A stretch of 48,926 bases of DNA. Source: Stenomitos rutilans HA7619-LM2. GTDB taxonomy: Bacteria; Cyanobacteriota; Cyanobacteriia; Leptolyngbyales; Leptolyngbyaceae. A program made the translations under genes and the position numbers. The stretch spans positions 1 to 48,926 of the forward strand of contig JAHHIE010000050.1 of the NCBI GenBank assembly GCA_019358945.1, read 5' to 3'. The notes under the pieces are model-generated. The model was not told the DNA's origin. It ran no database searches and saw nothing but the letters and a program-made list of their open reading frames with translations. Within the stretch, counting starts at the first letter, position 1. Each line of letters opens with the position of its first letter. This document shows positions 1-28,460 of the stretch, piece by piece.

Positions 1-60
1 AAGCAACAGAGGTTCAAAAATTTCCCATTCTGCGTCAGTCAGACTGCTCGAATAGCTCAT
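1..60 (-). CDS. IS5-family transposase, N-terminal fragment (runs off the edge)
   Basis: An ATG at 60 on the minus strand opens MSYSSSLTDAEWEIFEPLLL, the usual start of IS5-family DDE transposases of cyanobacteria. Only 20 residues remain before base 1. The matching C-terminus, on the same strand, is at 48821-48926. About 200 central residues, including the DDE catalytic positions, are absent, so activity cannot be judged. If bases 48926 and 1 were joined directly the frame would close at once, so either the assembly broke inside a multicopy IS or this is an internally deleted copy. Confidence 0.72.
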   Translation of the reverse strand, partial: MSYSSSLTDAEWEIFEPLLL

Positions 61-122
61 CGTCATTGGATTAAAGGGTTACGGCTCCCTTAATTTTAAT
101 TATGAAGATGTCAAATTAACTC
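1..122 (-). mobile_element. IS5-type element, transposase-start end (contig edge)
   Basis: This is one end of an insertion sequence cut by the contig edge. Its outer boundary is base 122, next to TATA at 123-126, which also abuts the other end of the element at 48801-48804 and is the likely 4-bp target duplication. Read inward, the terminal repeat is GAGTTAATTTGACATCT, matching GAACCCATTTGAGATCT at 48805-48821 at 12 of 17 positions. The family is inferred from the transposase ends. The inner part of the element is missing from the window. Confidence 0.75.
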
Positions 123-126
123 TATA

Positions 127-218
127 CTGAGCAAATGGCGCTCCAACCGGGTGATACGTTTGAGTTGGTGCTGGGTCGCAAACACATCCAGCTCAAACAA
201 CTGGACTCTGGCGATTGA
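127..218 (+). pseudogene. cyAbrB-type regulator, 3' part split off by the IS
   Basis: The frame ending at TGA 216-218 reads MALQPGDTFELVLGRKHIQL and then KQLDSGD, the C-terminal AbrB-like strand region of cyanobacterial AbrB (cyAbrB) transcription factors (a GDxFEixLGRKHIxLxxL pattern). It has no start of its own. Joined after the TATA duplication to the 5' part at 48516-48804 it gives one uninterrupted frame of 127 codons, a normal cyAbrB size. cyAbrB proteins bind DNA and regulate carbon/nitrogen and other genes in cyanobacteria. This copy is inactivated by the insertion. Confidence 0.72.
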
Positions 219-374: not shown

Positions 375-1760
375 TTAACTCATTGAAGCTTCGGGATGCG
401 GTTCTGGTTTCTGCTGGACAACCCATTCTTCAAACAAACGTGCCCCAATTGCCCATGACTCATCAGCCACCTTCTGAATTACTCCAGTGCCGATGAGCAC
501 TTCCAGCGCATCAGCGACTTCACCGTAACTAAACCCAGTTTGTTGTGCTAGGGACTCGGTAGATTCTTGGCGGCATTCAACCAGTGCTCGATAAACCGCT
601 CGCTCTGTATCTCCTAGACTGTAAGGACGCTGTGGGTCATGCCACCAGGCAGAAAAATCGCGATCGTGCTGCCTCAGGAGTTCATGCTTCAGACTCTCTA
701 CTGAGTGGTGATCTTTTTGGTAAGCATCGAAAAGACAATTGAGCAGTTGTTGCGTCAGGTAGGGGTGCCCGCCTGCCCACTCGGTGACTGTCCTAATATC
801 GGCCTCAGCCAACTCCAAGCTTTCTTCCTGACAGCGTTGCTCAATGAGCGCCTGAGTCTCTGCCGGAGTCAAGGCAGTCAGCCAGTCTACCTCAGCGATA
901 TTGAGTAAGGGGGAGCCAACTGCTTGCTGATAATCTTTCAAGTTGCGGTAGCCAGAAAACAGAAAGCCGATAAAGGGTTTGAGGGCAGTGTCCGTATCCT
1001 TTAAGCCACGCAAATAGCTCCAGGCATCATTGGCCCAACTCTGACTGACCACAAATTCTGACCCATCTAAAAGAAAGCACACGCCATCAAACTGCCATGT
1101 CCGCAGTTCGTTAATCGTTTCTAGTAAGGCCTTGCGAAAGTCATCATGAGGTAGGCGTTTTTCATAGCTCGGATTTTTAACATTGACTTTCAGATTGATC
1201 GTGCTCAGAAAGCCCACGGTCACTTCCCCACCTGCAACCTGGCTTAGGAATTGGCGGTACTGCTCGCGTAGTGCAGCAACGGGTACCGATCGCCATCGGT
1301 TCATGGCCTCTCGCAAACGGGCAATCAATAGATAACGAAAACTGTCCAGGTCTTTGGGTTGCTCAACTTGCAAGCTCATAAAGACTGGAAAGGCTCGGGT
1401 TTCGTCTGGCCTTGCCTGCTTTTGAGGAGAACTGGTTTGCTCCGATGTGGACTGGGGAGCCAACTTGGCGAAGGTTGGAAAGAGCTTTTGTACCCAGCCA
1501 GTGCGGGCTTTGGCTGCTGCTAGCTGATTAGCTGGCTCAGCGGAGTGCGCCGCTTTATTAGTGTCCAGCTTCAGCAGATTCCACTCTACTGCTCTTAAAA
1601 GACTGGTTTTGCCAACCCGTCGTCCCCCCAACAGGATTCTGACCTGGAATGGCGAGCGCTGCACAGCTGCCAGCAGGTGATTGCGTCCAAAAAAATAAGG
1701 TGGGTCGGTAATGGTGACTCGAAAGTTGTCAAACGGACGTTGTTCTAGTGAATCTGCCAT
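375..1760 (-). CDS. AAA/STAND-like P-loop ATPase with C-terminal winged helix
   Basis: A soluble protein of 461 residues from the chosen start. It opens with a FGRNHLL motif, typical of the entry to ORC/STAND-type ATPase domains, followed by Walker A GGRRVGKTSLL (about residues 45-55) and a Walker-B-like VCFLLDGSEF stretch. The last 90 residues look like a winged helix (TERAVYRALVE, then SYGEVADALEVLIGTGVI). I chose ATG 1760 because it has a strong GAGGAGG ribosome site 9 bases upstream; a more upstream in-frame start at 1799 would overlap the preceding gene by 55 bases. It overlaps gene 1745-4807 by 16 bases, so the two are probably co-translated and act together. The substrate is unknown. 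Confidence 0.75.
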   Translation of the reverse strand: MADSLEQRPFDNFRVTITDPPYFFGRNHLLAAVQRSPFQVRILLGGRRVGKTSLLRAVEWNLLKLDTNKAAHSAEPANQLAAAKARTGWVQKLFPTFAKLAPQSTSEQTSSPQKQARPDETRAFPVFMSLQVEQPKDLDSFRYLLIARLREAMNRWRSVPVAALREQYRQFLSQVAGGEVTVGFLSTINLKVNVKNPSYEKRLPHDDFRKALLETINELRTWQFDGVCFLLDGSEFVVSQSWANDAWSYLRGLKDTDTALKPFIGFLFSGYRNLKDYQQAVGSPLLNIAEVDWLTALTPAETQALIEQRCQEESLELAEADIRTVTEWAGGHPYLTQQLLNCLFDAYQKDHHSVESLKHELLRQHDRDFSAWWHDPQRPYSLGDTERAVYRALVECRQESTESLAQQTGFSYGEVADALEVLIGTGVIQKVADESWAIGARLFEEWVVQQKPEPHPEASMS

Positions 1761-4700
1761 TTGCGGATTTCCTCCTCTCCCATTTCCATTTGCAACCAAC
1801 GAGATAGTAAGGGCACATGGCTGCGGTAATAGTCATTGTCTTTTGTTTCCACACGCAGCACCAAACCTACTTTTTCTAGCCAAAGTAACGCATCCAGAGA
1901 TTGGCTCTCAGTCAACAGGTTGTTGAGACGAGCTTGCAGGTCTTGTTCTGTAACACCATTATCCAGATCTAAGTTACAGGCAAGTAGCTTTAGCACTGCC
2001 ATTGCAGCTTCAAAGTTGCGTTTTTTCAGATCTGCCCAGATATTTTGACTAAAGTAATCTTTGAGGATGCTGGAATAAGCAAAGGGCCGTTTGATATAGC
2101 GTTGAGCGTTCACCTCAGAAATTTGTCCGCCGTCTTGCTCTACCACTTTGGCGCAGAGAAGGCTGGCGAGTTGCCGGGAAATGAATGGATGTCCACCACT
2201 ATCTTGATGGATTAGGGTAAGGGTCTCTGGATCAAACGATCGCCCCATTAAGCGGCTAATATCCATCAGCATTGTCTGGGTCTCTTCGGTTGAAAAGGGA
2301 GAGAGAAAGACTTCCTTAAAGAAACTAAAGACTGGATTGGTGGGAACGCCCTCCTGTTGCCACTGGTTGATACGATTGCAGTCTGGGTGAACATCTGCCA
2401 CTAGCAATCCGAGTTGGCGTTGGTCCTGACTCAGTGCCCGTAAACTCCCAAAGAACGCATTAAATTCTTCAACTTTTGCTGTAGGGTCGGTTGGCGTTGG
2501 CAGAATGCGCTCAATTTCATCCAGGAACAGCAGGAGCGGTGGTTCGTAGCCTACTTGGGTGAGTGCTTGGATCATCTTGCCAATGCGCTGGATAAATTCA
2601 GTCGTTAAGGCAGTCGCCGGCATTTCCAGTGAGAATGGTTCAAGGTTGAGCGTGGTTGTTTTGTCACGCTCTCGTAGTAGCAATGAAAGCTGCCGCAGAA
2701 TTTCATTGAATAACTCGGCCCCATAGCGAGGCTTGCCGCCATAGGGTTGCAGATCCAGGTGCACCACTGGATGCTGCCGCAGAGAAAAGCCGAGTTGCAG
2801 CAGGATGGAGGTTTTACCGGATTTTCGGAGTCCAAACAAACCCACTCCCTGCTTGCGGAGTAACTCTTCTTCGAGACGGTGCAGGAGGTCTGTGCGCCCA
2901 AAAAAGGAAAGGGTATCGCCAATGGCGTTGCGATCGTCAAACAAGTCAGCACCGGGCAAGTAGCGATCAGCGTACTGCGCTAGCAAGCCTGCACAGGCAG
3001 CAGGGTCGGTAACGGCTTTTTCCACCGCAGCCAGAGGGATTGGAATTAACACAAATTGATCGCGTAAGCGTACTTCCGCCATCCGCACTCGAAACAGCGT
3101 GTCTGGAGCTTCCTGGTAGAGTAAAACTCCGGCTTGTTTTTGGAGTCCGCCACCCATTTTCTCTCCAGCTTGCATTAGCTCTGTGACATCTTGAGCAGTG
3201 GGTGTGTCGATCGCCAGTAAAACGGGAAAAGGAGCTAGAGCTTTCAGCCGACCCACTGCACTGATAACCCGCAGACTGCGCTTACCGTCTTGCTTAGCCG
3301 TTGCACCTGCTTGTTCCAGAAATTGCTTGGCAATCAGAAGCCACTGGTTGAACACGTCCCGCTCTTGTCGGGCAGTGACGATCGCCCGACTAAACCGCAG
3401 CAATACCACTGGACGTAGCCAGAATAAGACAAAGGCTCCCACCACCAGCAAAGCTAGACCAATCAAAAGAATCTGGACGGCAATCCCCAAGAAAAGTGCG
3501 CTTTTCTGTGCCTGGATGGTATCGATCGTGCGCCGGATTGGTGTCATCATTTCTGCGGGAAACCGCGATCTTCCCCCAGCCAGTGGATTCAAGGGGTCAG
3601 AGGCTTCCATGATGCTTCTAGCCTGGGTTAAGGCATCTAATGCCTGATTCATCTCCGACAAAGAGAGCCGACTATCAAAATTAATTCCATTCCCAATGGG
3701 ATCAGGATTAACTTGATCCTGGATCTCTCCAGAGATTTTTCCAAGCGTAGCAGCGGCACTATTGCGAACTCGTTCATCATTGCTTTTGAGCGATGCAGTT
3801 AAGGCTGGGGCACTTGATAATCCCATCTGTGACAGGGCAAAAATTGCGCCTTCACGGACAGGCTTATTGTCATCCTGAAAGGACTCGATCAAGTTTGGAA
3901 TGGAAATTTTTGCTATAGCACCCATCTCACCCAGGGCATAGGCACTCTCACTGCGTACTTTTACATCCTGGCTCTTGTCATTCAATGTCTTGAGCAAGTT
4001 AGGGATCGCCGCTGAACCGACTTTGCTCAAGGCGAAGGTGGTTCTTTGACGTACCACGGCATCACGATCGTTGAGAGCCATAATCAAAGCAGGAATGGCG
4101 GAATTCGCTGATTTCCCAATCTCACCGAGAGCATGAGCTGAGCTTGCCCGAATTTGCCAGTTGGGATGCTGAAGCGCCTGCACCATTATTGGAACGGCGG
4201 TTTGTGCATCTACCCCGATTTGCCCTAAGGCTTCGATCACTTGTTGCTGGACTGCTAAATTACTCTCTTGCGATACCTGAATCAATGCTGGAACGGCTGC
4301 TTTTGCAGTCGAGCCGATGAGCCCAAGCGCCAAGGCCGCATTCAGCCGAACCTCTGCATTGCGATCTTTTAGTGCCTCCGTCAGTGCAGGGACAGCAGGA
4401 GAACCGATTTGACTCAGGGCGATTGCAGCCTCACGCCGAAGCCCATCGTCCTTTCCTCTCAGAACCCCGACCAGAGCCGGAACCGTAATTTCTGGCTTTG
4501 CCTGCACCTTGCCTAACGCGCTGACAGCACTGAAACGCACCAGTGCATCTTCATCTTTCAACGCCTCCACCAACTCAGGGACGCTATCCCTAGCTGACGG
4601 TTCAGTTTTGCCCAGATTGGCTGCAGCAATGCGGCGAGTTGCTGCATTCTTGTCTCGAAGTTGTTGTGTGTAAAGAGAAGCTTCGGAGCTTTGTGGAGCA

Positions 4701-4807
4701 GACCCACAACCACTGGGAGCTAGCAGCACAGCTAGCAAGAACCCTACACAGACGAACCTGAATATTTGGATCAATCGTCGCCTCATCTGCTTCACCGTAG
4801 CCCCCAT
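1745..4807 (-). CDS. HEAT-repeat lipoprotein with membrane span and cytoplasmic P-loop ATPase domain
   Basis: The 1020-residue product begins with a basic hydrophobic signal ending in a lipobox-like APSGC (Cys 34). Residues about 45-370 form HEAT/PBS-lyase-like repeats of about 35 residues (vPaLieaLkd.ds.VR..Aa.ALG.iG). A long hydrophobic span lies near residues 434-462 and is followed by basic residues. The C-terminal half holds Walker A GLRKSGKTSILLQL (about 652-665), a LLFLDEIERILP Walker B and a GGHPFISRQL sensor-like motif, as in STAND/ORC-type ATPases. The predicted topology puts the HEAT part outside the cytoplasm and the ATPase inside. The start could also be ATG 4786. It is first of a coupled pair with 375-1760. 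A sensory or defence role is inference. Confidence 0.75.
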   Translation of the reverse strand: MGATVKQMRRRLIQIFRFVCVGFLLAVLLAPSGCGSAPQSSEASLYTQQLRDKNAATRRIAAANLGKTEPSARDSVPELVEALKDEDALVRFSAVSALGKVQAKPEITVPALVGVLRGKDDGLRREAAIALSQIGSPAVPALTEALKDRNAEVRLNAALALGLIGSTAKAAVPALIQVSQESNLAVQQQVIEALGQIGVDAQTAVPIMVQALQHPNWQIRASSAHALGEIGKSANSAIPALIMALNDRDAVVRQRTTFALSKVGSAAIPNLLKTLNDKSQDVKVRSESAYALGEMGAIAKISIPNLIESFQDDNKPVREGAIFALSQMGLSSAPALTASLKSNDERVRNSAAATLGKISGEIQDQVNPDPIGNGINFDSRLSLSEMNQALDALTQARSIMEASDPLNPLAGGRSRFPAEMMTPIRRTIDTIQAQKSALFLGIAVQILLIGLALLVVGAFVLFWLRPVVLLRFSRAIVTARQERDVFNQWLLIAKQFLEQAGATAKQDGKRSLRVISAVGRLKALAPFPVLLAIDTPTAQDVTELMQAGEKMGGGLQKQAGVLLYQEAPDTLFRVRMAEVRLRDQFVLIPIPLAAVEKAVTDPAACAGLLAQYADRYLPGADLFDDRNAIGDTLSFFGRTDLLHRLEEELLRKQGVGLFGLRKSGKTSILLQLGFSLRQHPVVHLDLQPYGGKPRYGAELFNEILRQLSLLLRERDKTTTLNLEPFSLEMPATALTTEFIQRIGKMIQALTQVGYEPPLLLFLDEIERILPTPTDPTAKVEEFNAFFGSLRALSQDQRQLGLLVADVHPDCNRINQWQQEGVPTNPVFSFFKEVFLSPFSTEETQTMLMDISRLMGRSFDPETLTLIHQDSGGHPFISRQLASLLCAKVVEQDGGQISEVNAQRYIKRPFAYSSILKDYFSQNIWADLKKRNFEAAMAVLKLLACNLDLDNGVTEQDLQARLNNLLTESQSLDALLWLEKVGLVLRVETKDNDYYRSHVPLLSRWLQMEMGEEEIRKWQIH

Positions 4808-4867
4808 TAGTAGTCAATCAAATTTAGAATTTTGTGGAACGAGCATGGCATGGAATCATGCTTCGAC

Positions 4868-6361
4868 TTAAGGCACGGGAGTTGGGTTTGACTGCTTCGG
4901 CTTGAAGCTGTACTGCAGGCGATCGCCAGGAGCATATTGAAGAGGGCTATGGGGATCATTCCTAAATTTCATCCAATCTAATTCTTTGCCAAATGAAATC
5001 GAGGCTGTACCATCAGGAGCAAGCTGATAAAGCCACTGAGCATCTCGGCAAATAGAGGACTCAATGCCGGGAATCTGTTTGGGTAAGCTGCTCTGTCTGC
5101 GGGCAGCTTCCTTCACTTGTAAAACTTTTTGAGTGAGTTCAAAGCGCAGCGCGGCTTTGCCCACCTTATGCCACTGATTCACCCAAGCTGGACCCAGATA
5201 TGGATTCCACCAAGCAGAAGCAATTCCAGGTTGTTTGGAAAATGTATCCGGATCAAAAGCACAGAAATCTTGTTCCGGCAGTTTCAGCACGAGTTGTCTC
5301 ATGCGATCGAAGTAATCAACGGCTGCAAGGCGTAAATAGGGTTTAAAGACCAGATCGGAGAGTGAAATGAACCATTGGGGGTAAGGATTAGAAGAACTAT
5401 CAGACAACTCGAACACTGGGAGAGATTTGAAGAAGGAAAGTGCAGGATACTTTCTCGCCGATACAAATAAAAAAGCCTCACTGTAAAGCCCTTTGAGAAA
5501 AGACTGAGGTAAATCGTATTTGTTAAAGCGGTTCAGTCGCTCTTGCCATGCAGTCGGAAGTTCCTGCATCTTCCGCATCACTGAAGCCTGCCAGCTGGAG
5601 TTGATAATAACAACGAGTTGAGCAATTAAAGTCGGTTGTTCCTGTAAAGCCTGATTCAACTTCCAGGACACTTCCAGGGTCTCAAGCGCTGCTTGCAGTT
5701 GCCCCTGACGAGTCTTGTCCAAAATATCAACCACAAGAATCTTTTGGAGATTAGCAACACTAAGAAAGCTAGGCAGTGCAATACCAATATCTCCGACTGC
5801 TCTTATATATGACATTTCCCATCGTGGCAACTCGCTACTTAAGATATGAGTGCGAACTGCCTCCAGTTCTATTGCATGTTCAACCAGGTATTGGTGAATA
5901 TTTTCTGGTGGAGCATCAATCTTGTCATTGGGCTGCTTAAATTGGCTATCCAGATAGCGACTCAAGTCTTTTCCGAGCGTCTCCACAAACGATTTTTGAT
6001 CAGCTTTGGGCGTTGGAAGATGCAAATAGCGAGTTGGAGTCACTTTGGTTCCCAAAATTTTGCCAAAGCCCAAACCAGTACTTAACTCTTCTAGCTTGAG
6101 GGCTGAGTTATTCGTTTCAGTGGTAGGAAACTGTTGAATATACTGTTCGACCGCCTGATCAACCCTCTTCTCTTGTTGAGCCGCAAGCAAATTTCCACCA
6201 ATGACCCAGATTGCCAGCAGACCAATAACCACAGGAGTTACCCAGCGGAGTATCTTAAAGAGATGGATTAACAGTCTCTGAAGTAGTTTGAGCAGCTTTC
6301 GCCCTAAATGTCCTGATTCAGTCAGAGGACGCTTTGGAGAGGCAGGTAATTGTTGCCGCAT
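4868..6361 (-). CDS. Uncharacterised protein with one N-terminal membrane span
   Basis: I do not recognise this family. The protein has a basic, Leu-rich N-terminus, one strong membrane helix near residues 37-60 (VTPVVIGLLAIWVIGGNLLAA) and about 430 mostly helical residues without an evident catalytic motif; the C-terminal tail is Pro-rich. The sequence suggests a membrane anchor with an extracytoplasmic domain. ATG 6361 has a GGGGTGA ribosome site 5 bases upstream; a GTG at 6367 is an alternative. It is encoded upstream of and co-oriented with the HEAT lipoprotein gene (gap about 60 bases), which suggests one membrane-associated unit of three genes. Confidence 0.6.
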   Translation of the reverse strand: MRQQLPASPKRPLTESGHLGRKLLKLLQRLLIHLFKILRWVTPVVIGLLAIWVIGGNLLAAQQEKRVDQAVEQYIQQFPTTETNNSALKLEELSTGLGFGKILGTKVTPTRYLHLPTPKADQKSFVETLGKDLSRYLDSQFKQPNDKIDAPPENIHQYLVEHAIELEAVRTHILSSELPRWEMSYIRAVGDIGIALPSFLSVANLQKILVVDILDKTRQGQLQAALETLEVSWKLNQALQEQPTLIAQLVVIINSSWQASVMRKMQELPTAWQERLNRFNKYDLPQSFLKGLYSEAFLFVSARKYPALSFFKSLPVFELSDSSSNPYPQWFISLSDLVFKPYLRLAAVDYFDRMRQLVLKLPEQDFCAFDPDTFSKQPGIASAWWNPYLGPAWVNQWHKVGKAALRFELTQKVLQVKEAARRQSSLPKQIPGIESSICRDAQWLYQLAPDGTASISFGKELDWMKFRNDPHSPLQYAPGDRLQYSFKPKQSNPTPVP

Positions 6362-6866: not shown

Positions 6867-9314
6867 TCACTGGCGCTCGGCAAGCGGTAGCAGTAGGGTT
6901 GCTGCAATTTCCTGTCTCAACTGAGCGCTGCTATTCGTACTTTCCAGGCAATCTGCTAGCAGTTTGTTGGCCTCGTAGTATTGCTGCAATTGCTCTTTTT
7001 GAGCCTCACTAAATTGCCAATCATGCCCAAGATTGCGGTACTGGCACATCACGGTCCGGAGCTGCTCGATCCAGGCTTGCCCATTCACTGTCCACCACTG
7101 TCGAAAAGACTCCCCATGCTCGTGGGACATCGCCGGTAACTGGTCTTTGACCTGTTGCAACTGGCGCTGCAAGGCGGGCAAGCGGGCACAGGCGCAGGCA
7201 AGGTTGAGGGTGTCGTCAAGCTCATAGGTACGTCCAAAAAAGAGGGCGCTCTCAAGCTCGAACGCGAAATCGAGGGCAAGGTCGAGGGCGAGGTCGAGGG
7301 CGAGGTCAAGAGCGAGGTCGAGGGTAACCTTGAGGGTAAGATCGTTGGTAGGGGCGAGGGTGAGGTTGAGCTCGCAAGCACGTCCAAGGACGTAGTAGAG
7401 AGCAGGAGTGAGGGAGAGCTTGAGATCGCGCGTGCAGGTTTCGAGGTTGTGAATGACAGGATCGGTGTCAAGAGCGAGGGTGAGCTGGAGGTTGAGGTGG
7501 AAAGCCAGCCCAAAGTAGAGGGCGCGTAGGGCGACAGGCTGGTCGCTGGACTCGATCGAAGTTGCTTTAGCGTCTACCCAGGTGAGAAACTGTTGCAGTT
7601 TTGCATCGCCTGCCAAGAGTCCATCGATGCGCCGCTTCATCAGGCCTAGCAACTCATCAGCGGTTGGGAGCATTTCCAGCGTCAAGCACAGTACTTCACG
7701 CCAGCGGGGATTGGTGAGCTGGTGGGCGAGTGTGACCAGCGATTGTTGATCAGCAGTTTCGACAAGCTGCCGGGCCGTGAAATACTCGTGGAAGGTGAGG
7801 TGAGCAAAGGAGTAAATCTCGTGGGCACGTTCGATCAAAATGCCATGCTGACGTTCGATCGTGGCCAAGAACGCCTCGATGTCTAAAGCCTCTGGGGTCA
7901 GAGCGTCGTTTGTGGAGTGGAGGCAGTGGGGCAAGACCTGTTTGATTAACCGTGCGGCTGTATCCAGATCAAAGAAGTAGCTGCCTTCGGTAAACGTCGG
8001 GAGCGCCATCTGGCGAAAGAAGGCTTCTCTGCCGCTAGGGGAAAGGGCCTGATAAAACGGTTCCCAACCAGTGTCTGCAAGTTGAGCGCGAGCTTGCAAC
8101 AGTGCCTTAAAGCTATCCCGGTAGAGCTTCCAACGTTGGGTGGGAAAAGCACCCGTGCCTTCAAAGACGAGGCATAGCAAGGTGAGGAGCAGCGGACGGG
8201 TCGCTAAGTCGTGGAGCGGCGGTTGCTCCCTCAGTGCTTGCAGGAATGCTGCTGCTTGACCTGCTTGCTGCTGACGACAAAACCATTGCTCCACAAAGTG
8301 GGCAATTTGCTCCTTATTGAAAGCGGCAACTTCGACTTCGGTGAACGCCTCAAGGGTATACTCACGGACAGCGAGGCGGCAGGTGATGACAAAAGCATTG
8401 CGGCCATAGCGTTCAGCAAACGCTTGGAGATGCCGCACCACTCGGCTGGCGTCGGTTTCGCGGACTTCATCTAAGCCGTCCAGTAAAAGCAGGGCACGTC
8501 CGTGAGACAAGATTGTTTGAATGTTCGTCTGACTGGGCGCAGCAGCCTGACCGTTCACCCCGATCACTGGCGGGATCAAGGTCTGCAGGTATGCCAACAA
8601 ATCGAGTGGACCCTCGGTTTCGGCAAAAGCTTTCAGGGTGATAAACCAAGGCACACAATGTGGGTAAAACGTCCCTTCTACACATTGGAGCGCTAAATGC
8701 TTGAGAAAGGTGGTTTTTCCTGACCCCGGTTGCCCCAGAAGCATCAGCTTGCCATATTGCTGCACCGCTTCCAAGCCAGGCACCGTTTCTTTGACCGTCC
8801 CCAAGCTCAAGCGTTCCATGGTTGGTGCTGCTGCGTCTCGCAGCAAGGCAGCGACTCCTACCCGTCTGCGTCCAGGAATCTTTGCCAAGATCTTGACGTG
8901 GGTGTAAAGGATGCCCAGCGCCATTGGCTGGTTCATGCCCAGCACCCGTATGACGCTACACCGTGACTGAATCAGCGGTTGGATGGCTTGGCGCACCTGC
9001 CCTACCAAGGCATCAAGGTTGTTTTCCTGCTTCCCAGACACTGGCGGTGCAGAAGCCTCCAAGGCTTGATAGCGCTCCAACAACCAATCATGTAGCTTTC
9101 GGTACTTATTAGGTCCTTTACCGGTAAAAGAGAACTTTCTATACACCTCGCTCATGCGGGACGCCAAAGCAGATTCAGAGATCCCGAGGGCTTGGGCAAT
9201 TTCAAGCTTATTGCCGCTGCTATTGACAGTAGCTGTAAAGGCTTCTGCTTGTTCGGGTGAAAGGTCGCGCTGGTGGGCTAATTGAGCTAGGAACTCGCGT
9301 GGGAACGCCTGCAT
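6867..9314 (-). CDS. HTH-NACHT NTPase (NLR-like) with Leu/Asp/Ala repeat C-terminus
   Basis: An 815-residue NLR-like protein. Residues about 1-83 form an N-terminal helix-turn-helix domain (LEIAQALGISESALASRMSE) of the type found at the N-terminus of cyanobacterial conflict-system NTPases. The NACHT domain follows: Walker A LLGQPGSGKTTFLKHLALQC near residue 196 and Walker B ALLLLDGLDEV near 279, with the acidic pair typical of NACHT. After a helical region (FHEYFTARQL near 510) the C-terminus contains a run of LALD units near residues 655-690. NACHT proteins of this kind are known bacterial anti-phage sensors that oligomerise on activation; that role here is inferred from architecture. It is a single gene with a long upstream region. 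Confidence 0.82.
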   Translation of the reverse strand: MQAFPREFLAQLAHQRDLSPEQAEAFTATVNSSGNKLEIAQALGISESALASRMSEVYRKFSFTGKGPNKYRKLHDWLLERYQALEASAPPVSGKQENNLDALVGQVRQAIQPLIQSRCSVIRVLGMNQPMALGILYTHVKILAKIPGRRRVGVAALLRDAAAPTMERLSLGTVKETVPGLEAVQQYGKLMLLGQPGSGKTTFLKHLALQCVEGTFYPHCVPWFITLKAFAETEGPLDLLAYLQTLIPPVIGVNGQAAAPSQTNIQTILSHGRALLLLDGLDEVRETDASRVVRHLQAFAERYGRNAFVITCRLAVREYTLEAFTEVEVAAFNKEQIAHFVEQWFCRQQQAGQAAAFLQALREQPPLHDLATRPLLLTLLCLVFEGTGAFPTQRWKLYRDSFKALLQARAQLADTGWEPFYQALSPSGREAFFRQMALPTFTEGSYFFDLDTAARLIKQVLPHCLHSTNDALTPEALDIEAFLATIERQHGILIERAHEIYSFAHLTFHEYFTARQLVETADQQSLVTLAHQLTNPRWREVLCLTLEMLPTADELLGLMKRRIDGLLAGDAKLQQFLTWVDAKATSIESSDQPVALRALYFGLAFHLNLQLTLALDTDPVIHNLETCTRDLKLSLTPALYYVLGRACELNLTLAPTNDLTLKVTLDLALDLALDLALDLALDFAFELESALFFGRTYELDDTLNLACACARLPALQRQLQQVKDQLPAMSHEHGESFRQWWTVNGQAWIEQLRTVMCQYRNLGHDWQFSEAQKEQLQQYYEANKLLADCLESTNSSAQLRQEIAATLLLPLAERQ
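7253..7345 (-). repeat. Low-complexity 12-bp repeat run coding (LALD)n
   Basis: On the plus strand the units GGTCGAGGGCGA recur with small changes, coding on the minus strand for about five LALD units in the NACHT protein. Such runs change copy number by slippage. The wider block 7230-7510 keeps the same GAGGxTGAG-like composition, so it probably grew from one ancestral unit. Confidence 0.7.
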
Positions 9315-10177: not shown

Positions 10178-11959
10178 ATGGCTAAAATGTTGTCTGATCT
10201 CCTTTTGGAATATCAACTATTCTCTAATAACCGAGAGTTTAGTAACCTCCGCTCCATTCTGAAGAGGCGCATATTTCCTGATCTGCTCAAGCTTGATGGC
10301 TTGCAACAGCTTCAAGGCAAAAAATTAGATTACATGCTTGAGCACATGCCACTCGCTGGTTTTGTCGCTCTAGCAAATCCGATCTTTCAAAGTCAGATAC
10401 TACAACTGGCTCGCTCTAACACTTTGAAAGTTGAGAAAAGCCAATGGAAACGGTTCTGTACTTGGTTACAAGCACACGAGCAGTATGTTCCTGATCCGGC
10501 TCCGCTTGTGTCTGTTTCAGAGGCGGTACAACCTGCCTACAGCCATATCCCCAAAGGTACGCTCAAAGCAGTCATGGCGCTGAAAAAAAAGCGGGAGAAA
10601 ACCAAAGGGCCGATCGCCTTGCTGGAACGAGATTGGACAGCAGACCTCATAACCGATAGGCAAAGCTTTGATTTCTTCCTGCAAACAGTCACGCGATGGC
10701 GCAGAAAGGCTGTCACTATCGCAACACTAAAGCAGTGCCATCGAAGTATCGCACGAGTGTTGGGGTACAAAACCAGGGAACAAGGGATTGCCCTTGAAGC
10801 GTTAGCGATCACTGATCTCTTAGACCAAACTTTACTGCAAGCTTATGTGGAGTCCAGTCAAAAGCGGGGCCTGTCCTCAAACACGATTAAGAGTGATATG
10901 GCAGTTGTCATTCCCATTGCTCAATGGCAATTTCACTTGTCTACGCCGAATGAAAATTACAGCAATCCTGAACCAGTCAAAGCAATTCGCAGCTATCTGA
11001 AAACGATTCTCATTGACCACCGTGATCGCCCGCGCGTTTCAGATGAGGCTTGTGCCGAGAGGGAACTAACCAGGCAGCAATGCTGGGAAATCCTGGACTA
11101 TCTGAGCTGGCGCTGTAAAGACTTAGAAAAACAGCACGGTATGACGCGCCAAGTGATTGACGCGTGGATGGATTACTTGATGATTGCGTTCTTGGTCACA
11201 ACGGGTGCGCGACAGCGCGAGCTTCGAGAACTGCAGCGGCAATACTTAGCGCTTGAAGGCAATGTCATCTTTGTCAAGTTGCCACCGGAAGGGCACAAAA
11301 ATGGCAATAAGACCGGGAGGGGCAGAGAGTATCCGCTTTTTGTGGGACCGATGCAGCTCTCCTTAACCACTGACTTACAGTACTATCTTGAGCACATTCG
11401 CCCACAAAACCTGGACCATGATTTTCTCTTCTTCCTACGCCTAAATCAGGCTAGGCCGTATGGACGGATTCGTCGAGGCGATCCCATTCGAGCAGACTCG
11501 TATCTCTCTAATCTAGTTTCTAAGCTCATCGCCTGCGTCACCGCTCATCTGTATGGAATTGAGCAGGCTAAATGGACGACCCCGCATGATTTTCGGCGAA
11601 TTATCGCGACTTGGGTCTGTACCTATGGCGAGCCGAAGCATCTGCCCATTTTCGCTGAACTTTTGGGCCACTCCATGGACATGTTGGTCAAGATTTACAA
11701 CAAAAGGCACCCTGGAGACCTAGCACGTCAGTCCCCGTTTGCTTATGACGAGATTGCCGCAAGAGAGGAGCGGATGCAGGATTCTAAGGACTTGGGCAGG
11801 GCCAAGGCCGCCACTTCTATGTCCGAAATGAGCCTGTCGGCACTCGTAGCCATGCTCCAAAAGCTCGTACGCAAGCTCTGGTATGCTTTGACCCAGCGTA
11901 AACAAAATGAGGTGCTTGCATCGCTATCACCCGTGGAGCGTGAGGCGATCGATGCCTAA
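10178..11959 (+). CDS. Tyrosine-type site-specific recombinase
   Basis: A 593-residue integrase-like protein. The C-terminal catalytic domain carries the family's active-site set: Arg 345 (TGARQREL), His 470 and Arg 473 (HDFRR), His 498 (LLGHSMD) and the nucleophile Tyr 507 (KIYNKRH). The N-terminal 330 residues are helical and probably include a core-binding (SAM-like) domain around residues 170-290. It is larger than phage integrases (350-400 residues) and resembles stand-alone recombinases of large plasmids and genomic islands, where they resolve multimers or mobilise DNA. It stands alone on the plus strand; no attachment site was recognised nearby. Confidence 0.85.
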   Translation: MAKMLSDLLLEYQLFSNNREFSNLRSILKRRIFPDLLKLDGLQQLQGKKLDYMLEHMPLAGFVALANPIFQSQILQLARSNTLKVEKSQWKRFCTWLQAHEQYVPDPAPLVSVSEAVQPAYSHIPKGTLKAVMALKKKREKTKGPIALLERDWTADLITDRQSFDFFLQTVTRWRRKAVTIATLKQCHRSIARVLGYKTREQGIALEALAITDLLDQTLLQAYVESSQKRGLSSNTIKSDMAVVIPIAQWQFHLSTPNENYSNPEPVKAIRSYLKTILIDHRDRPRVSDEACAERELTRQQCWEILDYLSWRCKDLEKQHGMTRQVIDAWMDYLMIAFLVTTGARQRELRELQRQYLALEGNVIFVKLPPEGHKNGNKTGRGREYPLFVGPMQLSLTTDLQYYLEHIRPQNLDHDFLFFLRLNQARPYGRIRRGDPIRADSYLSNLVSKLIACVTAHLYGIEQAKWTTPHDFRRIIATWVCTYGEPKHLPIFAELLGHSMDMLVKIYNKRHPGDLARQSPFAYDEIAAREERMQDSKDLGRAKAATSMSEMSLSALVAMLQKLVRKLWYALTQRKQNEVLASLSPVEREAIDA

Positions 11960-24818: not shown

Positions 24819-27800
24819 ATGACTCAGACCAACCACGGTGGCACTAATTATCAAACCCAAACTGGGCAAGATAATACTAACTTTCTGGGGGGAGAGCACC
24901 ACCATTATTACAGCAGACCCTATGCTCATTCAGGTGCTCCGTTCCAAGCTCCCCCCCTCCCCCGCCCCTACATTGATCGCCCCGAACCCCATGCCGCCGT
25001 TAAAGCCAAACTCCTGGCAGAGGAATCCGCCACGCCGGGAACGCTTGTAGTCAGCGCGATTTTTGGCTTGGGAGGCATTGGTAAATCCGTGTTGACGGCT
25101 GTCCTTGCCCACGATCCGGAGGTGCAAGCCCATTTCCCCGATGGCATTCTCTGGGCAACCCTGGGTCAACAGCCCGATGTCCTTCCTTTTCTGAGCAATT
25201 GGATTCAAGCCCTCAGAGATTACGACTACAAACCCACCACGATCGACTCCGCCTCGCTGCACCTTCGCACCCTGCTTTACAACAAAAAAGTCTTGCTAGT
25301 GGTCGACGATGTCTGGAACCCAGACCATATGGAACCTTTTCGCGTCGGTGGTTCCCAGTGTCAAGTTCTAGTCACTACCCGCGAAGCCAAAATTCCCGAC
25401 AGCGATCGCTACGACATGGATACCATGACTGCGGAGCAATCGTTGGAGTTGTTGCTGCAAAAAGCCCAGTGTCCAAACCCCAGATCAACCGAATGGCAAC
25501 AGGCGGAAACCCTTGCTAGAGAAGTGGGCTACCTTCCCTTGGCGCTAGAGCTAGCAGGTGCCCAAATTGCCGACGGGGTGTTATGGTCAGAGTTGCTGGA
25601 AGACCTTCAGGCAGAGATTACCTGTTTGGAAGTCTTGGACGACTCAAATGCGCCGAGCGTCAGTTCTGAGAAGAACCGCAAACGTCTGAGTCTGGTGGCT
25701 TCGTTGAACCTCAGTTTGCGCCAGCTTTCCCCAAAGCAGTTGCGCCAGTTTGCCTGGTTGGGGGTGTTGCCGGAGGATACAAGTCTGACCCAAGATATGG
25801 CAGCCACGTTATGGGATGTCACCCCTCGACAGGCAGGAGCCATTTTGCGGACATTGTGGTCAAAGGCTCTGCTATTGCCGGGAGTTAAGCAATCAAATCT
25901 AAGGCTCACCTATCGACTGCATGACTTGATGCATGACCTGGCAAAAGGGTTGATCATCGCTCCTTGTGTGCCCAACGGCGAAGCTCCGGCTCTTGCGGGT
26001 TTAGGACTAACTCTGATAGAAGCGCATCAAGCCATATTGTCCAAGTATTATGCCAAGACTCAGCAAGGACAGTGGTACACCCTTCCTGATGATGGGTACA
26101 TCCATGCTTATCTCACCTGGCATTTTCAGCAGGCACAGCAACCCAATGCGCTGCACCAACTTTTGCAGGAAACTACCTCAGAGGGGCGGAATGGTTGGTA
26201 CGAAGCCTGTGAAAAATTGGGGCAAACCGCCAATTTTGTCACGGATGTAGCACGATCATGGGAACACGCTGAAACCCAATATGCCAACAGTTCTGCCCAG
26301 TCGATTGCCTTACAACTTCGCTATGCTCTGATTACTACTACCCTTAATAGCCTTGCCAGCAACATTCCTTCTAAACTCATAGCAGTATTGGTTGAAAAGG
26401 GCTTTTGGACTCCTGCCCAGGGGCTTGTCTATGCTCAACAAGCCCAGACATCAGATCAGTGTGCTGCCATTCTTCGGGAATTAGCGGGTCACTTACCAAA
26501 CACCTTGTTGCCAATAGCGTTGCAGATGGTGCGCCAAATTCAGGGTGACAACAACCGAGCTGATGCGCTGAGTGGATTAGCTCAATATTTGCCGGAAGTG
26601 ATTCCTGAAGCATTGGCAGTGGCGCATCAAATTCAGGATAATTACGAGCGAGCCAAGGTGCTAAGTAAATTAGCCCCACATTTGCCGAAAGCGTTATTGT
26701 CCAGAGCGTTGGCAGTGGCGCATCAAATTCAGGATGACAACAACCGAGCCAAGGCACTGAGTGAATTAGCTCCATACTTACCAGAAGTGATTCCTGAAGC
26801 ATTGGCGGCGGCACGTCAAATTCAGGATGACAACAACCGAGCCAAGGCACTGAGTGAATTAGCTCCATACTTACCAGAAGTGATTCCTGAAGCATTGGCG
26901 GCGGCGCATCAAATTCAGGATGACAACAACCGAGCCAAGGCACTGAGTGAATTAGCTCCATACTTACCAGAAGTGATTCCTGAAGCATTGGCGGCGGCAC
27001 GTCAAATTCAGGATGACAACAACCGAGCCAAGGCACTGAGTGAATTAGCTCCATACTTACCAGAAGTGATTCCTGAAGCATTGGCGGCGGCGCATCAAAT
27101 TCAGGATGAGGAAAGCCAAGCTGAGGCGCTGACCAGACTAGTCCCATATTTGCCAGAAGTGATTCCTGAAGCATTGGCGGCGGCACGTCAACTTCAGGGT
27201 GAGGTCTCTCAAGCTTTTGCGCTGACCAGACTAGTCCCATATTTGCCGGAAGTGATTCCCGAAGTGTTGGCAGTGGCGCGCCAAATTCAGGATGATTATT
27301 ACAATGACCGAGCTTATGTGCTAACCGAACTAGCCCCCTATTTGCCAAAAGCATTATTGCCCGAAGCGGTAGCGGTGGCTCACCAAATTCAGGATAATTA
27401 CGAACGAGCTTCTGCCTTAAGTAAATTAGCCTCATATTTACCCGAAGTCATTCCTGAGGCTGTGGCAGTGGCGCACCAGATTCAGATCAAAAAAGACCGA
27501 GCTTCTGCCTTAAGTAAATTAGCCTCATATTTACCCGAAGTCATTCCTGAGGCTGTGGCAGTGGCGCACCAGATTCAGGATGAGAGTCTCCAAGCTTTTG
27601 TGCTGAGCAATTTAGCTCAATATTTACCGGAAGTGATTCCTGAAGCAACAGCGGCGTTGCACCAAATTGAGTATGAGCAATATCGAGCCGAGGCACTCAG
27701 TGTCCTAGTCCCATATTTACCGAAAGCGTTACTGTCCGAAGCAGTGATAGTGGCACGCCAAATTGAGTTTGAAGACTACCGAGCTGAAGCATTGAGTGCC

Positions 27801-28460
27801 TTAGTCTCATATTTACCGGAAGTGATTCCCGAAGCATTGACCGTGGCGCACCAAATTCAGGATAAGGAAAGCCGAGCTGAGGCGCTGACCAGACTAGTCC
27901 CATATTTGCCAGAAGTGATTCCGGAGACCTTAGCAACGGTTCGCCAAATTCAGGATGAGGAAAGCCGAGCTGAGGCGCTGACCAGACTAGTCCCATATTT
28001 GCCAGAAGTAGCTCCCGAAGCAGTAGAGGTGACATGCCAAATTTATTTTGAAGATTACCGAGCGGAGGCATTAAGTAGATTAGCTCCGCATTTACCGAAA
28101 GCGTTATTGCCCAAAGCGTTGGAAGTGGCACGCCAAACTCAGGATGATTACTGCCGAGCTTTAGCACTGAGCGGATTGGTTCCATATTTGCCGGAAGCGA
28201 TTTCCGAAGCATTAGAGGTGACGCATCAAATCGAGAATGATTACTACCGAGCCAAGGCGCTGAGTGACTTACTCGATTACCTAGATCTCACCAGTTTTGA
28301 ATTGTGGCGTAATATTCTTCATTCCCTGGCCTGTCTAAGTCGTAAGGAGTTTGTTAATGATTTACCAAAACTCAGTTCAGCAATTCTGGGGTTGGGGGGA
28401 AAGGCAGCGTTAGAGGGTGTTGTCGTAGGAGTGCGTGAAGTGTGTCAGCAATGGCGTTAA
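24819..28460 (+). CDS. NB-ARC NLR-like protein with N-terminal amyloid-type motif and 19 helical repeats
   Basis: A 1213-residue NLR-like protein. Residues 1-31 are the motif MTQTNHGGTNYQTQTGQDNT followed by NFLGGEHHHYY, shared with the next two genes. The NB-ARC domain follows: Walker A GLGGIGKS (83-90), Walker B VLLVVDDVWN (158-167), sensor VLVTTRE, GLPL-like YLPLALELAG, a winged helix and an MHD-like YRLHDLMHDL. Residues about 559-1156 hold 19 tandem repeats of about 31 residues (LPEvIPEALavAhQIQdd..RAeALs.LaPY), a helical ligand-binding surface. NLRs of this form oligomerise on sensing a trigger; the N-terminal motif would then template its counterpart in a partner (known for BASS motifs). 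An anti-phage role is inferred. Confidence 0.85.
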   Translation: MTQTNHGGTNYQTQTGQDNTNFLGGEHHHYYSRPYAHSGAPFQAPPLPRPYIDRPEPHAAVKAKLLAEESATPGTLVVSAIFGLGGIGKSVLTAVLAHDPEVQAHFPDGILWATLGQQPDVLPFLSNWIQALRDYDYKPTTIDSASLHLRTLLYNKKVLLVVDDVWNPDHMEPFRVGGSQCQVLVTTREAKIPDSDRYDMDTMTAEQSLELLLQKAQCPNPRSTEWQQAETLAREVGYLPLALELAGAQIADGVLWSELLEDLQAEITCLEVLDDSNAPSVSSEKNRKRLSLVASLNLSLRQLSPKQLRQFAWLGVLPEDTSLTQDMAATLWDVTPRQAGAILRTLWSKALLLPGVKQSNLRLTYRLHDLMHDLAKGLIIAPCVPNGEAPALAGLGLTLIEAHQAILSKYYAKTQQGQWYTLPDDGYIHAYLTWHFQQAQQPNALHQLLQETTSEGRNGWYEACEKLGQTANFVTDVARSWEHAETQYANSSAQSIALQLRYALITTTLNSLASNIPSKLIAVLVEKGFWTPAQGLVYAQQAQTSDQCAAILRELAGHLPNTLLPIALQMVRQIQGDNNRADALSGLAQYLPEVIPEALAVAHQIQDNYERAKVLSKLAPHLPKALLSRALAVAHQIQDDNNRAKALSELAPYLPEVIPEALAAARQIQDDNNRAKALSELAPYLPEVIPEALAAAHQIQDDNNRAKALSELAPYLPEVIPEALAAARQIQDDNNRAKALSELAPYLPEVIPEALAAAHQIQDEESQAEALTRLVPYLPEVIPEALAAARQLQGEVSQAFALTRLVPYLPEVIPEVLAVARQIQDDYYNDRAYVLTELAPYLPKALLPEAVAVAHQIQDNYERASALSKLASYLPEVIPEAVAVAHQIQIKKDRASALSKLASYLPEVIPEAVAVAHQIQDESLQAFVLSNLAQYLPEVIPEATAALHQIEYEQYRAEALSVLVPYLPKALLSEAVIVARQIEFEDYRAEALSALVSYLPEVIPEALTVAHQIQDKESRAEALTRLVPYLPEVIPETLATVRQIQDEESRAEALTRLVPYLPEVAPEAVEVTCQIYFEDYRAEALSRLAPHLPKALLPKALEVARQTQDDYCRALALSGLVPYLPEAISEALEVTHQIENDYYRAKALSDLLDYLDLTSFELWRNILHSLACLSRKEFVNDLPKLSSAILGLGGKAALEGVVVGVREVCQQWR
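26493..28285 (+). repeat. 19 tandem coding repeats (about 93 bp) in the NB-ARC gene
   Basis: Units of 31 codons (occasionally 32 or 33) repeat in register. Units 4-6, about 26780-27060, are almost base-identical and alternate only CGT (Arg) and CAT (His) before CAAATTCAGGATGAC, so a 186-bp pair of units was duplicated recently. Older units have diverged to 50-70 percent identity. Copy number is likely to vary between strains. Long open frames on the opposite strand here are by-products of the repetition. Confidence 0.85.

Follow-up and report, generated by a model that had tools for sequence, protein, structure and literature searches.

STAND and NLR switches have mainly been described as sensors located in the cytoplasm, and the sensors of Avs, bNACHT and NLR proteins are cytoplasmic. 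Two-gene STAND systems are known already, and the locus analysed here is a variant of them. In the section of PMC8195603 on nSTAND2 operons, these consist of two adjacent STAND-core genes, one of which, with degraded NTP motifs, bears the effector; they are placed there near CR-ATPases and DAP3, with effectors that are most often GT4 or HEPN, and an MNS clade of STAND ATPases is also named. As described in part of PMC10907252, Avs, bNACHT and NLR proteins carry the sensor at the C-terminus and the effector at the N-terminus, and passages of PMC4986451 report internally conserved, length-variable repeats in fungal NLRs. The relevant parts of PMC7159879 and PMC10907252 describe iSTAND ternary, EACC1 and DGR-diversified STAND systems, multi-gene NTPase systems of multicellular bacteria, some with transmembrane segments, and one DGR target whose NACHT and lectin domains are predicted to be periplasmic.

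The window, that is, the whole stretch of 48,926 nucleotides that was analysed, contains at 375..6361 a cyanobacterial cluster of three open reading frames, here called P1, P2 and P3. We put at slightly better than even the reading of P1-P2 as a membrane-spanning, NLR-like conflict receptor with a STAND switch, in which P2 would be the output and the HEAT part of P1 together with P3 the sensor.

Gene order and predicted topology

All three frames lie on the minus strand of the window, as do all features given below, and the calls match the earlier description. P3 (4868..6361) has an ATG start with an alternative GTG at 6367. P1 (1745..4807) encodes 1020 residues with an export signal, HEAT repeats, a span, a membrane-proximal alpha/beta domain and a STAND ATPase with a winged helix. 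P2 (375..1760), by comparison the output arm, encodes a second STAND ATPase with a C-terminal winged helix; its ATG at 1760 follows ggaggaaat, and there is an in-frame TTG at 1799. The overlap of 16 bases between the two ATPase genes, which a sequence-only reading had claimed, was confirmed exactly by the coordinates (1745..1760), and the membrane protein gene placed before P1 by that reading is P3, which has one span and is directly upstream. Among 32 loci surveyed the overlap was 16 bases in 13, 88 in six, 19 in two, 46 in two and 1 in one, the script having recognised no start in the other eight.

P1 begins with a hydrophobic export segment at residues 12-30 (4718..4774), preceded by KQMRRR and followed by a poor lipobox, APSGC34. 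HEAT repeats, predicted to be extracytoplasmic, occupy about residues 47-370 (3698..4669; Pfam HEAT_2, 2.3e-53), and their best PDB sequence matches were mostly alphaRep HEAT-like binders. The membrane span is at residues 446-464 (3416..3472; mean Kyte-Doolittle 2.93), with a net charge of +4 in the 30 residues after it. The layout claimed earlier for this protein, HEAT repeats, one span followed by basic residues and a P-loop ATPase, was therefore recovered in full.

Considering the parity given by one span between the HEAT part and the ATPase, together with the charge bias around the span, the scarcity of cysteines in the outer part and the recurrence of the arrangement in the tree, it is well supported that the HEAT half would lie outside the membrane and the ATPase half inside. 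A Sec-type start (n-region charge and hydrophobic core) was present in each of the 16 HEAT-type proteins whose N-terminus is complete, the window included, and the charge bias in all 16 full-length HEAT-type proteins tabulated. Cysteines in the same 16 proteins numbered 10 in 7682 residues outside vs 176 in 15106 inside, a depletion of about ninefold; these totals omit L149 and L178, which are not HEAT types and both fit the charge pattern, and L176, whose span fell below the script's filter, is absent from the charge and cysteine scoring. L178, the copy from another phylum, showed no depletion (4/348 outside vs 6/538 inside). HEAT repeats are cysteine-poor anyway, as seen in 19 unrelated HEAT ORFs (4 in 3296 residues for the nine with a hydrophobic start, 14 in 4075 for the other ten), so the depletion is supportive, not decisive. 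The combination of signal, HEAT and span was found in two places of the P1 tree and in the Nostocales branch; copies of the latter carry a further hydrophobic stretch, a weak one, behind the span, which makes their parity less certain. The earlier suggestion that the repeats lie outside and signal to a STAND ATPase inside is thus supported as regards topology, and the repeats may act as the sensing part.

Many HEAT proteins are cytoplasmic, and the HEAT part of P1 could be so as well if the N-terminal hydrophobic segment were unused and the internal span a mere membrane anchor, a reading favoured by the poor lipobox and by the additional Nostocales stretch. We regard it as very improbable, given that with one span the ATPase would then be outside, that signal and charge bias are found in all 16 proteins tabulated and that cysteines are so much rarer in the outer part.

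The lipobox pattern does not accept Pro at position -3. Scored by eye against this pattern, APSGC has Pro at -3, outside the permitted residues, and a Cys at the lipobox position was present in only two of 15 tabulated relatives (SSGC in L146, PTGC in L104); the starts of the Symploca and Nostocales copies are of the Sec type and lack this Cys. The lipobox-type signal read earlier in P1 therefore stands as an export signal, and the lipoprotein label is doubtful. That reading had also stated that homologues without the membrane span would speak against its proposal. The only such relatives (Tildeniella nuda, Leptolyngbya Heron Island J and Symploca SIO2C1) lack the HEAT repeats too and have another N-terminal module instead, and the joint absence of span and HEAT fits module swapping.

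The two ATPases and effector fusions in relatives

The membrane-proximal cytoplasmic domain of P1, at about residues 466-615 (2963..3412), was delimited from an alignment of 17 rows and the predicted model, and it is kept across architectures in that alignment; by eye, its order of helices and strands resembles a restriction-endonuclease core without catalytic residues. It is followed by the STAND ATPase and winged helix, at about residues 618-1020 (1748..2956), recognised by fold match and motifs. The P-loop reads GLRKSGKTS. Over 51 rows of the alignment G194, K197-S202 (KSGKTS) and D298 were invariant, as were G407 and H408, with P409 nearly so (GGHP, which we take to be the GxP-type STAND motif).

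SSO1545, which we assume belongs to the MNS clade (structures 2fna and 2qen), is a lone, apparently cytoplasmic ATPase. The fold comparison covered the P1 module only. Foldseek matched its model to 2fna (E 6.3e-10), and VIA, whose list covers mainly residues 151-555 of that model, gave 2qen (Z 22.9 over 337 residues, rmsd 4.4) and 2fna (Z 21.4 over 321, rmsd 4.7). The closest fold to the module is that of SSO1545/PABY2304, followed at short distance by CED-4 and the resistosomes of plant NLRs. With the P-loop, Walker B, GGHP and a fold that includes the winged helix all found in sequence and model, it can be assigned to the STAND NTPases of the SSO1545/MNS type. Pfam nSTAND1 (PF20703; gathering score 27.1) scored 25.2 bits in the window, below the cut-off, which was exceeded by L147 (30.7) and L150 (31.5) and missed by L149, L153, L144, L175, L156, L168, L169 and others scanned. 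The Pfam tables listed no nSTAND2 model, DAP3 came up for a single relative only (E 0.0078), and no PADLOC model fell below E 0.01 for either ATPase.

P2 is the second ATPase with winged helix that had been claimed. Its P-loop is GGRRVGKTS, and it is homologous to the P1 module (hhalign 99.6%, E 2.9e-24). G50 and K51 of the P-loop and G330, H332 and P333 were invariant in 22 rows, and the Walker B is altered, reading DG[SA]E in 18 of them. Pairing with P1 is conserved: identities of P1 module and P2 co-vary over 26 loci (Mantel r 0.974, 0/2000 permutations). Relatives of P2 carry effector domains, namely a CHAT protease in four loci (L169, 9.1e-32; L171, 3.7e-31; L122, 3.6e-36; L166, cut by the contig end), EAD1 in L178 (E 9.6e-21) and, on one distant copy, a HEPN match below cut-off. 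By comparison with these, P2 would be the output arm. In the window no effector domain was found on P1, P2 or P3, with 375 bases available past P2, beyond which a local effector may lie; downstream of P2 in 26 loci no gene family recurred except between near relatives, so nothing points to a third gene as dedicated effector.

The two proteins could alternatively form a MalT-like surface sensor in one piece, reporting nutrients or envelope stress instead of attack, whose winged helices would bind DNA. Both ATPases end in such helices, that of P2 is weakly nearest to the regulators TrmB, Lrs14 and Sta1 (all under curated cut-offs, TrmB at E 1.9e-4 and 21.6 bits against the Pfam cut-off of 25.6; PDB E 0.017-0.05), and most P2 copies have no effector domain. 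Winged helices are, however, a standard part of the switch in STAND proteins, and the fold matches include CED-4 and resistosomes; moreover, P1 is tied to the membrane, the CHAT and EAD1 fusions point to a proteolytic or adaptor output, and the occurrence is unlike that of a housekeeping regulator. We consider transcriptional output unlikely and retain the conflict receptor.

Occurrence is patchy and partly plasmid-borne. The P1 module of the window gave no loci as a query of genome contigs and the alignment query gave 77; P1-module matches at E < 1e-60 were found in 10 of 388 genomes of the class, P2 matches in 25 of 192 genomes of one family, and copies also on two Nostoc plasmids. In Nostocales, P1 has the order signal, HEAT, TM, NACHT-like insert and STAND, with fast turnover of HEAT copies. 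The insert is named NACHT-like since 19 of 21 copies contain G[DE]SGLGKS and IDGLNE (the remaining two are truncated) and the Pfam gathering score of 26.7 is missed (L153 19.4, L156 20.7, L168 19.5 and L169 18.7 bits). The base of the P1 tree is not resolved, and we therefore make no claim on the ancestral architecture; L154 and L173 are labelled HEAT-TM-NACHT there though their ORFs lack N-terminal parts, in the same group L155, L159, L160, L161, L166 and L170 are cut off by a contig edge that leaves the span but not the signal, and L176 is in no tree.

P3 and diversification of the outer parts

P3 has one span at residues 39-57 and is predicted to be N-in, with about 440 extracytoplasmic residues. 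No Pfam, NCBIfam or PADLOC family matched it at E up to 1; its predicted model is helical (pLDDT 68.6), and the fold search gave nothing below E 0.067. A conserved three-gene neighbourhood, suggested earlier as a check, was found: P3 is the gene immediately before P1 in six loci, namely the window, L146, L104, L147, L148 and L176, the last of which is truncated within P1 by the end of its contig. The two genes overlap in L176 and are 5-62 bases apart in the other five. The full trio is present in Cylindrospermum, one more relative and two Symploca, and a Spirulina contig stops within P1.

P3 might nevertheless be a passenger or an unrelated neighbour, P1-P2 alone being the functional unit. It was absent (blastp of ORFs, E 1e-4) from all nine loci of the HEAT-TM-NACHT-like type in which 4.8 kb or more of sequence before P1 was available, and its relatives occur elsewhere without P1: none of 17 inspected loci with P3 relatives has P1 or P2. 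On the other side, P3 precedes P1 in all six HEAT-TM loci found without the NACHT-like insert, five of which sit in two places of the P1 tree, and two Okeania have a fusion of the P3 N-terminus to the span of P1. One of the 17 P3 relatives away from P1 (L134) sits 33 bases after a TIR-NACHT gene, in favour of the conflict reading. A passenger role appears rather improbable to us, and we keep P3 in the proposed sensor.

The outer parts change fastest. In two pairs of relatives dN/dS was 0.49 and 0.37 in P1 outside, 0.19 and 0.17 in P1 inside, and 0.51 and 0.63 in P3. A hypervariable segment of P3, at about residues 289-335 (5363..5503), appears as a dip in both close pairs: 30-column windows were 52, 33, 19 and 37% identical for L146/L104 (starts at residues 289-323) and 43, 27 and 28% for L147/L148 (starts at 289-314), and 23 of 35 windows in each pair were at least 75% identical. 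Synonymous divergence was also raised in P3 (0.23 vs 0.07 in P1 in one pair, 0.17 vs 0.08-0.11 in the other), so allele exchange may explain part of the variability. The DNA upstream of P3 has diverged in the Symploca pair (76-92%, then 46-52%) and is 94-98% identical in L146/L104. Among stand-alone P3 pairs the closest (L124/L125, 86.6%) has no core dip, and of the more distant pairs two dip and two do not; from this mixture, P3 proteins may have a variable loop in general, with nothing but its rate being unusual here.

HEAT arrays turn over as well: copies with 90-92% identity in the inside part have outside parts of 301, 450 and 613 residues (L177 inside aligned only partly). At positions equivalent to those varied in alphaRep, pN/pS was 1.93 vs 0.68 elsewhere (pooled over seven loci, pairwise counts within one array not being independent), and in L169 the remaining HEAT positions exceeded 1 too. 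Of 18 unrelated cyanobacterial HEAT loci three arrays qualified, two of them also above 1 at these positions; in the same control ten loci of the family were given and eight qualified, seven exceeding 1 (L177, 0.81), and the other positions were above 1 as well in L165 and L153. As unrelated arrays also exceed 1, diversification of HEAT positions is not special to this system.

The trio could also be a linked polymorphic surface recognition locus, in which the hypervariable P3 segment (self tag, co-receptor or bait) would be read by the P1 HEAT part, a mismatch or attack would lead through P1-P2 to a protease or other lethal output, and lines without P3 would diversify HEAT itself. We hold this to be quite doubtful; if true, bacteria would have a transmembrane equivalent of the non-self recognition that NLRs perform.

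The proposed receptor and known systems

In the conflict receptor that we favour, the HEAT solenoid of P1 would stand on the outer side of the inner membrane, in the periplasm or possibly the thylakoid lumen, next to the one-span P3, as a diversifying sensor for components of a phage or competitor, a protein from a neighbour or damage to the envelope. The signal would pass by way of the single P1 span into the membrane-proximal domain and on to the P1 ATPase; P1 would exchange nucleotide and assemble with the homologous P2 ATPase. P2 would act through CHAT or the effector-adaptor EAD1 in relatives and here perhaps through an effector in trans, and the outcome would be an immune-type or death-type response. 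We infer the oligomerisation, the ligand, the direction of the signal and the role in defence or self/non-self recognition. Filamentous cyanobacteria would then monitor their envelope with NLR-type machinery, and the scheme gives a testable signal order (HEAT/P3 outside, P1, P2, effector) and a natural module-swap series. No title among those listed by the literature searches concerned a HEAT-TM-STAND receptor; preprints and most subscription journals were outside the search, so absence is unproven.

As in nSTAND2, both genes encode STAND modules, and the altered Walker B is that of P2, the partner to which CHAT or EAD1 is attached in relatives. Unlike nSTAND2, the best solved folds for the P1 module are SSO1545/PABY2304. 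The effectors seen here are CHAT and EAD1, with HEPN only below cut-off, where nSTAND2 most often has GT4 or HEPN, and the section of PMC8195603 on those operons mentions neither a secreted repeat domain nor a membrane span or P3. P1 shares with the SSO1545 type the P-loop, GGHP, C-terminal winged helix and fold; the ATPases here are paired and P1 spans the membrane, unlike the lone SSO1545. The coupling of a repeat sensor to a STAND switch and an effector resembles Avs, bNACHT and eukaryotic NLRs, and the repeats, conserved within an array and variable in length, resemble those of fungal NLRs, but unlike Avs and bNACHT the HEAT sensor is N-terminal, predicted outside and split from the ATPase by a span, and any effector observed is attached to the partner. 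The cores of the iSTAND, EACC1 and DGR systems are vWA-MoxR, caspase-EACC1 and C-lectin, with no HEAT-TM-STAND receptor in the parts of those accounts cited above. The designed variable positions of alphaRep binders (18, 19, 22, 23, 26 and 30; PMC3754942) overlap the most-varying positions in five of seven Nostocales HEAT arrays; those binders, unlike P1, are artificial, soluble and without an attached switch. The locus would stand apart from all of these as a diversifying outside repeat receptor hard-wired to an inside STAND pair, with CHAT on the partner in some strains.

Gene order and membrane topology

The window is a whole contig of 48,926 bases in a genome of 7.28 Mb; the three genes occupy its left end, on the minus strand. 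The first, P3 (4868-6361), encodes a one-span membrane protein that matched no family in profile searches. P1 (1745-4807), the HEAT-repeat STAND ATPase of 1020 residues, follows after a gap of 60 bases, and P2 (375-1760), the second STAND ATPase, overlaps it by 16 bases, with its ribosome-binding sequence ggaggaaat inside the P1 3′ end. The window's P2 combines a P-loop with a weak TrmB-type winged helix and is bare, without an extra output domain. The contig boundary is 375 bases downstream of P2; just past this gene (1-130, minus strand), the apparent start of an IS transposase gene cut by the contig edge was seen by eye.

The N-terminus of P1 is basic (MRRR); then come a hydrophobic stretch (residues 12-30), APSGC34, HEAT repeats (HEAT_2, E = 2.3e-53), a span (446-464) and, as the C-terminal part, the P-loop module. 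The module scored 25.2 bits against Pfam nSTAND1, slightly under the cut-off of 27.1 that is exceeded by some relatives (30.7 in locus L147 and 31.5 in L150).

Considering that a single span separates the HEAT repeats from the ATPase, and provided that the ATPase is cytoplasmic, the repeats would lie outside. The N-terminal signal, the charge after the span and the cysteine content agree with this placement. Sixteen HEAT-type proteins, that of the window among them, are complete at the N-terminus. In all 16, a basic region precedes an N-terminal hydrophobic core and the net charge after the span is positive; cysteines make up 10 of 7682 residues from signal to span versus 176 of 15,106 after it (0/411 versus 4/556 in the window). 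This depletion is supportive only, because HEAT repeats are cysteine-poor in general (18/7371 residues in control HEAT ORFs); the non-HEAT relative L178 was without it. On topology alone, it is very probable that the HEAT part is outside the membrane and the ATPase inside, as the sequence-only reading had proposed. That reading had also suggested a lipoprotein: export is accepted from the N-terminal signals, and the lipoprotein assignment is withheld because the lipobox of the window is poor (Pro at -3) and its Cys is retained in two close relatives only, the signals of the Symploca and Nostocales copies being without it. A strongly hydrophobic start was seen in 9 of 19 cyanobacterial HEAT-repeat ORFs matching the P1 repeats (L003-L020), and HEAT proteins located outside the cytoplasm may be frequent in cyanobacteria.

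The P1 module and its partners

The P1 module had matches in 51 of 388 class genomes at E ≤ 1e-3 (10 of the 51 at E < 1e-60), P2 in 42 of 192 genomes of one family (25 at E < 1e-60) and P3 in 23 of the 388. A contig scan with 17 aligned P1 modules as query gave 77 loci, the last 44 (L179-L222) being distant matches. The order signal-HEAT-TM-module was present in the window, Cylindrospermum FACHB-282 (L146), L104, Symploca SIO2E9 and SIO3C6 (L147, L148) and Spirulina SIO3F2 (L176, whose contig stops inside P1). P3 stood directly before P1 in 6/6 and P2 after it in the 5/5 able to show it; the neighbourhood noticed from the sequence was thereby recovered as P3-P1-P2 in five loci, window included, and as P3-P1 in L176.

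Nostoc, Scytonema, Calothrix and Mastigocoleus, among others, have the order signal-HEAT-TM-NACHT-like-module, the NACHT-like insert standing between span and module, and P2 accompanies it. These P1 proteins measure 1391-1957 residues (copies with the N-terminus covered). The insert scored 18.7-20.7 bits against Pfam NACHT, under the cut-off of 26.7, in 4/4 copies scanned, and 19 of 21 copies contain G[DE]SGLGKS and IDGLNE, both exceptions being truncated. P3 was absent from all nine loci of this type with at least 4.8 kb of upstream sequence. Two Okeania have P3 N-terminus-TM-module. NACHT-module was found on a Nostoc C057 plasmid with P2 (NACHT 47.3 bits) and in Leptolyngbya Heron Island J (49.4 bits), at which locus P2 was not found. 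Tildeniella nuda has a P2-like ATPase-module with a second P2, Symploca SIO2C1 another ATPase domain-module, and a Fimbriimonadales genome (L182:7879-11681) a cold-shock domain-TPR-module with a distant P2. In an Actinomycetota MAG (L178:7645-12071), the module is preceded by two hydrophobic spans with weak WD40/beta-propeller matches in between; the possible beta-propeller ectodomain and EAD1-bearing P2 would follow the logic of the cyanobacterial pairs, in a different phylum and with a different ectodomain. Because these architectures keep the module and vary what precedes it, the module is the constant core, with P2 usually next, and the P1 N-terminus is exchangeable, as would be expected of a sensor.

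A supported branch (99) sets the NACHT-like type apart in the P1-module tree, on which the HEAT-TM type requires two changes. The P1 and P2 identity matrices were correlated (r = 0.974 over 26 loci; 0/2000 permutations as high), and related P1-P2 pairs are present on two Nostoc plasmids.

The structure model of the P1 module (51 alignment rows, pLDDT 88.7) had SSO1545 (Foldseek E = 6.3e-10) and PABY2304 as best structural matches. 2qen aligned with a Z score of 22.9 (337 residues), 2fna with 21.4 (321 residues) and a wheat resistosome with 21.2; CED-4, plant resistosomes and ORC/Cdc6 proteins were near-best. P2 is homologous to the module (hhalign 99.6%, E = 2.9e-24) and retains the P-loop. 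Its Walker B is DG[SA]E in 18/22 rows, with DE in L178, L182 and L152 and the Asp missing in L143. We infer nucleotide binding with poor hydrolysis for most cyanobacterial P2.

Sequence change outside the membrane

In the close pairs L146/L104 and L147/L148, respectively, P1 dN/dS was 0.49 and 0.37 in the outer part versus 0.19 and 0.17 in the inner part. P2 gave 0.22 and 0.17, and P3 0.51 and 0.63, with P3 identity of only 76 and 78%. DNA identity, 92-99% for both pairs along P1 and the larger part of P2, fell within P3 to 69-70% and 81%, with indels. Immediately upstream of this gene it was 94-98% in the first pair and low in the second. Since P3 synonymous divergence was raised (0.23 and 0.17 versus 0.07-0.11 in P1), its variability leaves room for allele exchange alongside selection. 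In both pairs the P3 protein identity dip was centred on residues about 300-325 of the window protein (lowest windows 33, 19 and 37% in one pair; the other fell to 27 and 28%), and shallower dips lay around 185 and 380. Stand-alone P3 control pairs were mixed, with no dip in the closest (86.6%) and dips in 2/4 others. A bolder and rather improbable reading would have P3 carry a polymorphic tag that the receptor reads.

The HEAT arrays of the NACHT-like type often have internally nearly identical repeats and a fast turnover: outer lengths were 301, 450 and 613 residues among copies 90-92% identical inside (the inside of L177 partly aligned), 404 versus 666 at 90% and 597 versus 685 at 96%. The HEAT units in the outer parts of L158/L163, L165/L168/L177 and L169/L171 are near-identical, and their number changes rapidly from one close relative to the next. 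According to PMC3754942, alphaRep designers randomised repeat positions 18, 19, 22, 23, 26 and 30. At these positions, pN/pS in 31-residue arrays was 1.93 versus 0.68 elsewhere (pooled, 7 loci), and, of the six most variable positions, five loci had 4 or 5 in the alphaRep set (hypergeometric p 0.0063 to 0.00021) and the other two loci had 2. This variability shows a recognition-type surface that is not peculiar to the P1-P2 system, because 2/3 unrelated cyanobacterial HEAT arrays vary alike.

Likely output arm, neighbourhood and related systems

A CHAT protease domain extends P2 in Mastigocoleus testarum (E = 9.1e-32), Mastigocoleus MO_188 (3.7e-31) and genome G506 (3.6e-36), with a catalytic pair assigned by eye to the His of GHG and the Cys of NSC. 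P2 of Calothrix rhizosoleniae has the beginning of the same extension, cut by the contig edge, and these four form one group (99). The N-terminus of the L178 P2 is EAD1, an effector-associated adaptor domain, and the C-terminus of the L182 P2 gave a sub-threshold HEPN match. Because of these domains on P2 of relatives, P2 is likely the output arm.

The neighbourhood in the window is rich in conflict genes. A NACHT-NCH2 protein (6870-9314, minus strand; NCH2 1.6e-34, NACHT 1.6e-15) and an integrase (10178-11956) were found; the former has a low-complexity DLALDLALD stretch and overlapping open ORFs at 7085-7529. Two further STAND-type proteins are on the contig: an NB-ARC protein (24819-28457, plus strand; 1.8e-20) and, after it, a large nSTAND5-like protein (29010-32666, plus strand; below cut-off), adjoined by a YhcG nuclease (32680-33726). 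The surroundings of P3 relatives that do not accompany P1 were inspected at 17 loci. At one of these, in another cyanobacterium (L134:4084-8256, minus strand), the P3 relative (28.8% identity) is preceded at a distance of 33 bases by a TIR-NACHT gene (TIR_2 5.3e-30, NACHT 39.6 bits). P3-type proteins may team with other STAND conflict genes.

The sequence-only reading of an outer sensor and an inner ATPase is upheld and can be extended to a paired STAND switch, P3 and an output arm. The HEAT part of P1 and P3 would be the sensor, the ATPases P1 and P2 the switch and P2 the output, in a unit spread across the membrane; this whole mechanism we consider just on the probable side. We do not file the P1-P2 system as nSTAND2. 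In logic, it is closest to the two-gene nSTAND2 STAND systems, as described in PMC8195603, and by the modelled fold, the P1 module is closest to SSO1545-type STANDs.
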